A DNA stretch of 64,000 nucleotides from Variovorax boronicumulans. GTDB taxonomy: Bacteria > Pseudomonadota > Gammaproteobacteria > Burkholderiales > Burkholderiaceae_C. Below are positions 41,716 to 44,506 of this stretch, piece by piece; the first letter of the stretch is position 1, and each line of letters starts with the position of its first letter. The notes under the pieces are model-generated. The model was given only the letters and a program-made list of their open reading frames with translations. It did not search any database and was not told where the DNA came from. Where the stretch lies: contig NZ_JAUSSG010000001.1 of the NCBI RefSeq assembly GCF_030812215.1, positions 558,001-622,000 of the forward strand. The letters are read 5' to 3'. The position numbers were made by a program, and so were the translations under genes.

Positions 41716-42294
41716 CTAGCCATTTTTCTTCTTGCACCAAGGTCCCGATTCTCCGAACGCACGAATCCACTCGCGGGGAACAAACTGAACCGGCCGCACT
41801 TCATCGGGTCCTTGAGCTGAAGGAGATACCGCGTAGAGCTGGTGGGTGCAGTCATTCCCATCCGAGTTCATGCGAAACACGTAGGACATTCCCGCTTCAG
41901 GGATGAACTCAATGGTCGGGGTGCATCCTTTGAATGAGGGTGCCAAGGCCGCTCCCACAGCACCGCCCACCGCCATGGAGATGAGCATGCGATCTCCTGG
42001 GTCCATGCCAGTGGTCAACACAACTTCCTTTTCTGCCGGCACTGCGAACGAGCGTGACGATTTCGGTTCAATCAAACCCGTGCTGGTTCTGTTTGTGCAC
42101 TCCGCTGCACCTTCGTGAAAGTGGGCGGACATCTTGTCCTTCCCGTCGTTGATAAACCTGATGGAAGCCTTGGGACCAGTCGCTGGCTCGCGGTACGGCG
42201 CCGCACAGCCCAGCAGCGCGAGAGGTATGACCCAAATGGCAAGCTTTGTCGCACGTGTTGTCAGGGCTCGCAAGATAGATTCGTGAAAACGCAT
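41716..42294 (-). CDS. hypothetical lipoprotein
   Basis: This 192-residue exported protein has a lipobox near residue 30 (LALLGCAAP). The mature part has Cys pairs (AECTNRT, KGCTPT, NDCTHQ) and a small hydrophobic glycine-rich helix (MLISMAVGGAVGAALAP) of unknown role. ATG 42294 is taken because it precedes the signal peptide; upstream residues are not protein-like. G+C is somewhat lower than average. No family was recognised. Confidence 0.65.
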   Translation of the reverse strand: MRFHESILRALTTRATKLAIWVIPLALLGCAAPYREPATGPKASIRFINDGKDKMSAHFHEGAAECTNRTSTGLIEPKSSRSFAVPAEKEVVLTTGMDPGDRMLISMAVGGAVGAALAPSFKGCTPTIEFIPEAGMSYVFRMNSDGNDCTHQLYAVSPSAQGPDEVRPVQFVPREWIRAFGESGPWCKKKNG

Positions 42295-42418
42295 TGGTAC
42301 TGTCCTTGAAGAAGGGATCGCTGTATGGAGGTGAGTGACGAGGCTGACGTCGGCGCGGTCGGTCAATTGAAACCAGCGCCCTGACCTTACCTCGGGAATC
42401 CGTACACCACCGCTGAGC

Positions 42419-42733
42419 TCATGAATTGGCTTGCCTTGGCGCGGTGGGCTGATGATCAGAGGATGGCGTGTCCGGAAATTCATCAAGTTCTTTCAGGATC
42501 GCTTCAAGCACCGCGTGAAGCCTCGACCAGGAGGGAAACGTCAACGCCTTGCCCGACGCAGCCCTTCGCGCGCCTGCCGCCTTGAGTTTTTCGGCGACGG
42601 CTCCCTTTGCATCAAAAACTGCCGGGTGCTGCAAGCCTTGGCTCGACAACACTTCACTGGCTGTGCAACCAAGCCGATTGGCCAAGATCTCAGTGGCGGC
42701 CTTGGTGCTGGCAAGGGCACTGTTAACAATCAT
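42419..42733 (-). CDS. small hypothetical protein
   Basis: This 104-residue frame begins MIVNSALASTKAATEILANRL and resembles a short DNA-associated protein only in its helical first third (GCTASEVLSSQG). No strong ribosome site is seen (GTTGCGCAC). The region is moderately AT-rich. It is treated as a possible gene. Confidence 0.4.
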   Translation of the reverse strand: MIVNSALASTKAATEILANRLGCTASEVLSSQGLQHPAVFDAKGAVAEKLKAAGARRAASGKALTFPSWSRLHAVLEAILKELDEFPDTPSSDHQPTAPRQANS

Positions 42734-42842
42734 GTGCGCAACTCACAAACCCGCGATCACCGCCGCCCTGTATTCCATTCCTTATCGCACGCATTGGCCG
42801 GGCGGCCAGACAGCGAAACCTGTTGATAGTAGAAATCGCTGC

Positions 42843-42873
42843 TTGACTCTGAAGCGGCTCCAGGGTTTTTAAT
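42843..42873 (+). promoter_or_regulatory. MerR-family (ZntR/CadR/PbrR-type) metal-responsive promoter
   Basis: TTGACT (-35, 42843-42848) and TTTAAT (-10, 42868-42873) are separated by 19 bp, the over-long spacer that defines MerR-activated promoters. The spacer holds the dyad ACTCTGAAG-CGG-CTCCAGGGT (42846-42866), very close to known ZntR, CadR and PbrR operators. It faces the His-rich gene at 42925. Confidence 0.82.
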
Positions 42874-42924
42874 TCCTTTGCGCGCGATTCCGCGAACGCA
42901 CTCAATCCAAACAGGGAAAACCAA

Positions 42925-43275
42925 ATGACCATCTGCTCACAACACCCCGGAGAACACGCTCACCAGCATGGACCGTCATGCGGCCACACGGCCATCACGC
43001 ATGGTGACCATGTCGACTATCTGCATGACGGCCATTTGCACCACATGCACAACGGCCACGTTGACGAACACACCCTTGAAGTAACGGTCGCGAATCCCGA
43101 TCAATGCACGCCGAACCATCGCTGCGAGGGGCATGAGGCAGGACATGTTCATGGTCCCGACTGCGGCCACGAAGCCGTGCCGCATGGCGATCACATCGAC
43201 TACCTGGTTGACGGTCACCTTCATCACCCACACGGGGATCATTGCGATGATCACGGTGCCGTGAAGCTGGCCTGA
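42925..43275 (+). CDS. histidine-rich, repeat-containing metal-binding protein
   Basis: This 116-residue protein contains 27 His and 6 Cys. It is built from two imperfect copies of a roughly 31-residue unit: HGPSCGHTAITHGDHVDYLH with DGHLHHMHNGH, and HGPDCGHEAVPHGDHIDYLV with DGHLHHPHGDH, joined by VANPDQCTPNHRCEGHEAGH. There is no signal peptide, so it is cytoplasmic. The composition and the MerR-type promoter 52 bases upstream argue for a zinc-, cadmium- or lead-inducible sequestration or storage protein. ACAGGGAA precedes the ATG, and a terminator follows 24 bases after the stop, so it is a one-gene unit. No MerR gene is in the window. Confidence 0.8.
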   Translation: MTICSQHPGEHAHQHGPSCGHTAITHGDHVDYLHDGHLHHMHNGHVDEHTLEVTVANPDQCTPNHRCEGHEAGHVHGPDCGHEAVPHGDHIDYLVDGHLHHPHGDHCDDHGAVKLA

Positions 43276-43484
43276 ATCGCTTCCTCCTGATTGACCTGTG
43301 CCCGCCCCGTGCGGGCTTTTTCTTGCCCTGTGTTGTCGATACAGCAGAGGCTGCACAACGCCCCGGAGTGACGCGCTCTTTCTTGAGCTCGCCCGTTGGC
43401 GGCCCAAAAAAGAAAAGCGGCGAGTGCACCAAGGAAAGTGAGGGCCAGCCCGACGGCTTGCGTGATCTTGATCTTTTGATTCAT
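43251..43484 (-). CDS. possible small membrane protein
   Basis: This 77-residue frame starts MNQKIKITQAVGLALTFLGALAAFLFW, one convincing transmembrane helix, then continues into a low-quality tail read through the terminator of the opposite gene and 25 bases into its coding end. No ribosome site is evident. The hydrophobic start is protein-like, but the tail is not; a shorter product or no gene are both possible. Confidence 0.3.
   Translation of the reverse strand: MNQKIKITQAVGLALTFLGALAAFLFWAANGRAQERARHSGALCSLCCIDNTGQEKARTGRAQVNQEEAIQASFTAP
43300..43321 (+). terminator. intrinsic terminator after the His-rich gene
   Basis: GCCCGC (43300-43305), loop CCCGT, GCGGGC (43311-43316) and TTTTT follow the stop by 24 bases. 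Confidence 0.85.
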
Positions 43485-43822
43485 GGAGCCCGGCGAGCAA
43501 GGCTGCAAAGTCTAGGGCAGCTTTCTTCCTCGGAAATTTCAGGCGTGATGAATTGCACATTGATAAGAAGATTCGATCGATTGCCTGAACTCGTTCATCT
43601 TCAAACAATGTTCCCGATGGCTAACAAAGAAAAACAAATAGCCAGGTGCAGCAAATGAACGAGAACCGCATCTGTCCGGCGAAGTCATCTTGATTGTGTG
43701 CGGCTGCGACAGCAGCCTCCTGTCTGACCCGCTTCCATGCGGACACATGGACGCCACCCCTGCGGCCCCGGCGGCAACCCGTGCACAAGGCGCCCTCTCG
43801 CCCGCCCCCATAGACTGTCCTC
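43485..43822. other. spacer without a recognisable gene
   Basis: This 338-base stretch is AT-richer up to about 43690. Frames on both strands are short, lack ribosome sites and do not resemble proteins. It separates the metal-response unit from the methyltransferase gene. Confidence 0.5.
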
Positions 43823-44506
43823 ATGCCCCAACCCAACACCCCTTTCAGCGACGCATCCGCCCTCCGCGACTACGCCGAAAAGACCGCTCGCATCGTTCCC
43901 GGCCTGCACGACCTGCAGACGATGGCTGCCTTGCTCGTCGCAGAGCGCGCGCCCGAGTCGGCCAACGTGCTGGTCATCGGCGCCGGCGGCGGCATGGAAT
44001 TGAAGGCGCTGGCAGAAGCGCATCCGAAATGGCAATTCGTCGGCGTCGATCCATCGCAACCCATGCTCGATCTGGCAGCGGCGGCGCTCGGCCCGCTTGC
44101 CGCGCGCGCCCGGTTGCATCTGGGCTATACCGACACGGCGCCCACCGGCCCGTTCGATGCCGCGACCTGTCTCCTGACGATGCACTTCGTGCCCCTCGCA
44201 GAGAGAAGATCGACGCTGAAGGAAATCCATCGCCGCCTGAAACCCGGTGCGCCTTTTGTCACGGCGCATCTCAGTTTTCCCCAGGCGGAGGAAGAGCGGG
44301 CGCTGTGGCTGTCGCGGTATGCGGCTTTCGCCATCGCTTCGGGCGTCGAACCGGAGAACGCGCGCAAGGCGGCATCCACCATCGGCTCGACCCTGCCGCT
44401 GCTCGGCCCGGAACAAGAGGAGGAGTTGCTTCGAGAAGCCGGCTTCTCGAACGTGCGCCTGTTCTACGCCGGCATGGCGTTCAGGGGCTGGGTGGCGCAA
44501 GCCTGA
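43823..44506 (+). CDS. class I SAM-dependent methyltransferase
   Basis: This 227-residue protein has a SAM fold: VLVIGAGGGMELKALAEAHP is motif I, FVGVDPSQPMLDLA carries the acidic ribose ligand, and FDAATCLLTMHFVP is motif II. It resembles small-molecule or cyclopropane/ubiquinone-type methyltransferases, but the substrate is unknown. A decayed amidohydrolase fragment follows directly. ATG 43823 follows CTGTCCTC with no strong ribosome site. Confidence 0.85.
   Translation: MPQPNTPFSDASALRDYAEKTARIVPGLHDLQTMAALLVAERAPESANVLVIGAGGGMELKALAEAHPKWQFVGVDPSQPMLDLAAAALGPLAARARLHLGYTDTAPTGPFDAATCLLTMHFVPLAERRSTLKEIHRRLKPGAPFVTAHLSFPQAEEERALWLSRYAAFAIASGVEPENARKAASTIGSTLPLLGPEQEEELLREAGFSNVRLFYAGMAFRGWVAQA

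Follow-up and report, generated by a model that had tools for sequence, protein, structure and literature searches.

What controls a short gene for a histidine-rich protein in Variovorax boronicumulans, and what does that protein do? The question is raised by contig NZ_JAUSSG010000001.1, of which a stretch of 64,000 nucleotides (positions 558,001 to 622,000, forward strand), referred to here as the window, was analysed. At positions 42925..43275 of the window, on the + strand, an open reading frame (ORF) encodes a protein of 116 residues with 27 His and 6 Cys, and its status as a gene is supported by homologues and by the concentration of nucleotide changes at codon position 3 (37 of 53 changes against a paralogue in the same genome, 15 of 21 against the copy in a second genome of the genus, G646). 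We consider it probable, at about 0.62, that this protein is a metal-induced cytoplasmic buffer under the control of CadR, similar in role to the metallothionein SmtA but belonging to a different family.

The gene lies behind a promoter with a -35 element TTGACT (42843..42848, + strand) and a -10 element TTTAAT (42868..42873, +), separated by a spacer of 19 bp, CTGAAGCGGCTCCAGGGTT, within the 19-20 bp of CadR/PbrR-type MerR promoters. The same -35 hexamer occurs in PpbrA, PmerT and PzntA, as given in the available part of PMC3431237. A standard sigma-70 scan, confined to spacers of 16-18 bp, found no promoter at 42843-42873, as a 19-bp spacer would lead one to expect. From the -35 element through the spacer runs a dyad of 11-1-11 form, GACTCTGAAGC-G-GCTCCAGGGTT (42845..42867, +), which we predict to be a CadR operator. 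A leader of 51 bp separates TTTAAT from the ATG at 42925, and an intrinsic terminator-like stem-loop with a T run (43300..43323, stem 43300-43316, +) ends the unit; the terminator scan returned three overlapping sites on the + strand against a shuffle mean of 0.8, and the element is kept in the paralogue and in G646. An Rfam scan of 42001-44500 gave no RNA element at the gathering cut-off. An earlier note, made from the letters of the window, had described this promoter and spacer, the closing terminator and a stand-alone protein of this size and composition built of two repeats, all of which we recover; its promoter-to-gene distance of 52 bases comes out one base shorter, and the dyad it called ZntR/CadR/PbrR-like can be narrowed to the CadR/PbrR type.

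The narrowing follows from comparison with the Pseudomonas aeruginosa CadR (PaCadR) consensus selected in vitro by Barrows and others, AACCCTGTAGT-T-ACTACAGGGTT (PMC12301328, available part). Counting matches over its 22 half-site positions, the site scores 16/22 and ranks first in the 64-kb window, the runner-up having 13, and ten base-shuffled windows reached a maximum of 15 and never 16. On the same scale both published PaCadR sites reach 18, the gene copy in G646 scores 17, the site before a homologous gene in Burkholderia sp. Ac-20379 scores 16 and the site near cadR in that genome 17. The site at the genome's own cadA scores 14 and that at the second copy of the gene 15; these values fall within the shuffle range, so the case for the two sites is made by their common pattern and position. 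Across the three close copies the operator is more conserved than either flank, with identical columns numbering 26/31 in the operator, 65/114 upstream and 35/52 downstream.

The common operator pattern, TTGACYCTNNNNCNGCTTCAGGGTTTNNAAT, was searched with up to three mismatches in the 6,745,429 bases of the genome. It matched three times, perfectly at the cadA promoter and with one mismatch each at the window gene and the second copy, and the reversed pattern, used as a control, had no match in the same bases. As the fixed bases of the pattern were chosen with these three sites already in view, the matches are not independent, while the lack of additional ones is still informative. A chance origin of the promoter is ruled out by the consensus score against the shuffles together with this genome-wide search. 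The genome encodes eight MerR-family proteins by PF13411 and seven by PF00376, and a single one exceeds the cut-off of the CadR/PbrR equivalog model TIGR02047 (185 against 151.45 bits), supplying the cognate MerR gene that the earlier note had asked for. This cadR is divergent from a gene for a heavy-metal P-type ATPase, cadA, of which a 497-residue part has a CPC motif, an E1-E2 ATPase match and a sub-threshold HMA domain; the nearest specific models are those of Zn/Cd/Hg/Pb ATPases, whose cut-off it does not reach, probably owing to the partial sequence. The genome thus holds a cognate CadR/PbrR, the operator pattern recurs at the cadA divergent from it, and CadR/PbrR-type regulation of the window gene is well supported by sequence. 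CadR would be expected to bind and activate the window promoter.

The pairing of promoter and gene recurs outside this genome. In Ac-20379 the operator pattern has two matches, one at the homologue (0 mismatches) and one ending 22 bases before cadR (3 mismatches), and this cadR is the sole CadR-PbrR equivalog over the cut-off there. An ORF divergent across the cadR-side site has a His-rich start, as in the V. boronicumulans cadA, and is presumably cadA too; tblastn of a short piece gave no match between the two. At the genus level the operator search took in seven of 61 genomes, G646 and six of the 59 that lack the gene, with nine sites in total. Seven of these adjoin a cadA homologue (L134-L140), four of the seven also having a CadR homologue at E<=1e-8 (L135, L137, L138 and L139). 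G646 has two sites, at cadA and at the gene (L142), and all six gene-less genomes have a cadA-side site (three with 0 mismatches, three with 3). With the pairing found again in G646 and Burkholderia, the window gene joins cadA as a CadR-type target and is not the only one, as the earlier note had supposed: cadA and the second gene copy carry the same operator.

The protein itself fits a metal-binding role. Its two repeat units, residues 15-49 (42967..43071, +) and 76-110 (43150..43254, +), have 35 residues each and are identical at 24 of them. A beta fold is predicted with fair confidence (predicted local distance difference test, pLDDT, 82.5), with strands at 22-26, 29-34, 37-42 and 45-49 in the first unit and 83-87, 90-95, 98-103 and 106-112 in the second, and the predicted strands are alike in two family members. 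Among 45 sequences 32 columns are invariant, 21 of them His (17) or Cys (4), and the ligand spacing is fixed. The strands, lined by His, Asp and Cys in the predicted model, may bind several metal ions. No match to the window protein was found in Pfam (E<=10), NCBIfam or the PDB sequences, nor did the predicted fold match a PDB structure. Hits of relatives to DUF3659 (6/45, best E 0.022), EutQ (3/45), two zinc-ribbon models (one each) and an NCBIfam model (1/29, E 0.019) were set aside as too weak to use.

To rationalise these features together, we turn to what is described for MerR proteins. In the available part of PMC3431237, metal-sensing members bind an over-long spacer and realign the promoter when metal binds, and cutting the PpbrA spacer to 18 bp makes activity independent of metal. 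By analogy, CadR would sense a rise in zinc, cadmium or lead and switch on the window gene, a MerR-type distortion of the DNA realigning the over-long promoter upon metal binding. Expression of cadA and of both His-rich genes would rise together under CadR, and the His-rich protein, probably cytoplasmic, would retain surplus metal inside the cell, with CadA pumping it out. Buffering is thus the function we infer.

Beyond these genomes the protein family is large and its regulation varied. At E<=1e-3, 5112 homologous proteins were found in a database clustered at 90%, and the best 80 of at least 564 confirmed loci in named genomes (68-80% identity over the best segment) come from records of proteobacteria, planctomycetes, myxobacteria, actinobacteria and others. 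Scored on the model of the window site, a MerR-type promoter was found before one of these 80, that of Ac-20379, with 16 against a maximum of 14 in 1,620 base shuffles. Eighteen further loci from the same order (L090 and L103-L119, leaving out the fragment L120 and L091 with 25% identity) have no such promoter, and five of them have an ArsR gene. A fixed promoter-gene pairing throughout the family is ruled out by these counts. The earlier note had suggested a search for the dyad before homologous genes, and had reckoned homologues without it or without the 19-bp spacer as evidence against its interpretation; the dyad stands before the paralogue, the G646 copy and the Ac-20379 homologue and is missing from the wider family, so that the interpretation is upheld for the former and would fail for the latter. 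A profile made from just two MerR proteins of this genome detected no MerR gene at any of the 80 loci.

In 45 of the 80 relatives the gene immediately upstream, in the same orientation, belongs to the ArsR family. With start codons assumed by rule, it overlaps the His-rich gene by 4-23 bases in seven of the 45 and is 1-195 bases away in 35, and in the other three (L012, L040 and L065) both proteins share one open frame with no stop. The latter may be true fusions or reflect stop codons lost in the assemblies, two of which are metagenome-assembled genomes. Forty-two of the 45 adjacent ArsR genes encode the pattern D-x-H-x10-H-x2-E/H, which we take to be the alpha-5 zinc site of SmtB and CzrA, and 44 the looser [ED]-x-H-x10-H; one aligns to SmtB and CzrA over the alpha-5 region and is classed by NCBIfam as an ArsR/SmtB metalloregulator. 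By contrast with these relatives, the two V. boronicumulans loci (about 3.3 kb each) gave no match to the ArsR profile. Upstream of the arsR genes we observed the dyads TCCAT-N6-ATGGA (6/45 loci) and CATTC-N12-GAATG (5/45), any dyad reaching at most 3 in 20 shuffles; the two fit one longer dyad, possibly an arsR operator. Plasmids carry the family rarely (10 of 72,556 records match, two of them over 80% of the query). A public source calls some members (P0026, P0066) threonine dehydratase, an enzyme that a 116-residue His-rich protein does not resemble, and a search of openly licensed PMC papers with four family peptide strings gave no hit. Judged by sequence, family members stand under two or more unrelated kinds of metal sensor. 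The family may be a zinc-responsive buffer, often under an ArsR/SmtB-type zinc repressor, that has been moved to CadR control here.

Several observations weigh against a CadR-controlled buffer. The site at the genome's own cadA scores lower than that of the window gene and within the shuffle range. The gene is rare, being present in two of 61 genomes of the genus (its own and G646) and in three of 200 in the sample of the taxonomic family, counting its own and one weak match of 25% identity; the order sample has a match in 20 of 399 genomes, again including its own and the weak 25% match. Such rarity among neighbours makes CadR control a local arrangement. One operator match in the genus (L141, in G635) adjoins neither cadA, cadR nor the gene. 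Finally, some relatives adjoin zinc-uptake-like genes, and in three of the eight loci of one genus (g185) Zur-box-like sites are better than each of 200 shuffles. The L141 site, TTGACCCTGAAGCTGCTTCAGGGAATCCACT, is CadR-like and perhaps marks another regulon member.

The zinc-uptake-like neighbours and the Zur-box-like sites would be compatible with a part in supplying zinc, and they lead to the strongest rival, which we regard as unlikely: a zinc chaperone or store that serves need, handing zinc to zinc enzymes or COG0523 proteins, with the sensor keeping the protein filled. In its favour, profile matches in the neighbourhoods of the 80 relatives include COG0523-like (22), ZnuC-like (18), ZnuA-like (10) and ZnuB-like (9) genes and Fur-like genes by two profiles (9/80 and 13/80). 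These matches are loose, may fall at any point within loci as long as about 10 kb and are in some cases weak or distant; the names were assigned from the sequences, and we take COG0523, Znu and Zur neighbours to be zinc genes. The Zur-box-like GTTATAnTATAAC sites of L112, L118 and L119 in g185 precede the gene by about 110-133 bp. The view that Zur regulates the family in general was rejected, the boxes being few and often far upstream, and with divergent zinc-uptake-like genes in some loci they may serve those genes. Against need stands the operator that the window gene has in common with the exporter gene cadA, and the alpha-5 zinc site in the ArsR before 42 of the 80 relatives predicts induction by excess.

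A second rival, which we hold to be improbable, is that the protein is chiefly a sponge for cadmium and lead, with zinc incidental. In its favour, the model that the regulator matches carries the name Cd(II)/Pb(II)-responsive, and the protein has six Cys; yet these are only six of 116 residues as against 27 His, and many relatives are under an SmtB-like sensor of the zinc type. Least probable is a metal-dependent protein that works as an adaptor, enzyme or regulator, needs zinc for its fold and is merely co-induced with cadA, for which one may cite the invariant non-ligand residues (P58, T62, P86, Y93, V95, L99 and G111), the compact predicted fold and the in-frame ArsR fusion in three of 80 relatives, which could mean sensor modulation, but against which stand the failure to find a known domain or fold and the share of His and Cys among the invariant columns.

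The second copy of the gene, on contig C7, encodes a protein 89% identical to the window protein and sits in a block of about 1.03 kb whose DNA is 78% identical to the window locus. Besides the gene with its operator and terminator, the block takes in a divergent ORF and a small convergent one. The convergent ORF (43254-43484, - strand, 77 residues) overlaps the terminator, belongs to no Pfam family and contains a CSLCC motif and a single hydrophobic stretch; it is kept next to the second copy (27 of 56 changes at codon position 3) and likewise in G646 (15 of 24). The divergent ORF (42419-42733, - strand, 104 residues) is also found beside the second copy, has no Pfam or NCBIfam family and was not detected by a script search of the G646 locus.

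Returning to the CadR-controlled buffer and its family, we tentatively propose, at somewhat less than even odds, that the window protein represents an unnamed and widespread class of folded His/Cys zinc buffers that do the job of metallothioneins in many bacteria and are plugged into the zinc sensor of the host. That sensor would be an SmtB-like ArsR in many cases, at times in one chain with the buffer, CadR in this genome and in a Burkholderia, and perhaps Zur elsewhere. The fold would be built of two beta units of four strands each, with a face lined by His and Asp. To our knowledge, little is settled about how zinc is buffered in the cytoplasm of bacteria without metallothioneins, and a family that comprises more than 5,000 clusters, keeps its ligand spacing fixed, has a predicted fold unmatched in the PDB and in many genomes follows a metal sensor presents itself directly as a candidate. 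We find the protein family of greater interest than the promoter, since it is large, in neither Pfam nor NCBIfam, and sensor-fused in three relatives. The CadR arrangement, with three operators, one regulator and two gene copies, allows clean testing.

Among known systems, metallothioneins offer the obvious comparison of role. By their usual make-up, as in SmtA and BmtA, the window protein is not one of them, given 6 Cys in 116 residues and no Pfam family at E<=10. SmtB and SmtA of Synechococcus pair a zinc repressor with a Cys-rich metallothionein, and the likeness lies in a zinc sensor before a small cytosolic metal binder, the SmtB-like ArsR standing before 45 of 80 relatives; unlike SmtA, the window protein is His-rich, has a predicted beta fold and lies behind a CadR-type operator. 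Very few bacterial metallothioneins are described according to the available part of a Pseudomonas review (PMC10393844), whose Pseudomonas examples, one of them called histidine-rich, are likewise small metal binders with histidines, the sequence relation having been compared by Pfam scan alone. PbrR and PpbrA of Cupriavidus metallidurans provide the likeness in promoter, with a TTGACT -35 element, a 19-bp spacer and an imperfect dyad between -35 and -10, whereas the target in the available part of PMC3431237 is a lead-resistance operon and not a distant stand-alone small gene. The closest precedent is the CadR-activated zinc-ribbon protein Zrd. In P. aeruginosa, cadA and zrd, a small zinc-ribbon ORF, are CadR-dependent and induced by cadmium and zinc (PMC12301328, available part), and in both organisms a CadR-type dyad is present at cadA and before a distant stand-alone small ORF for a metal-binding protein, the metal binding being a prediction in Variovorax. 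Zrd is a dual zinc ribbon with two CXXC-N10-CXXC motifs, whereas the window protein has no CxxC motif and belongs to another family, and in the Variovorax genome the small-ORF target is present twice.
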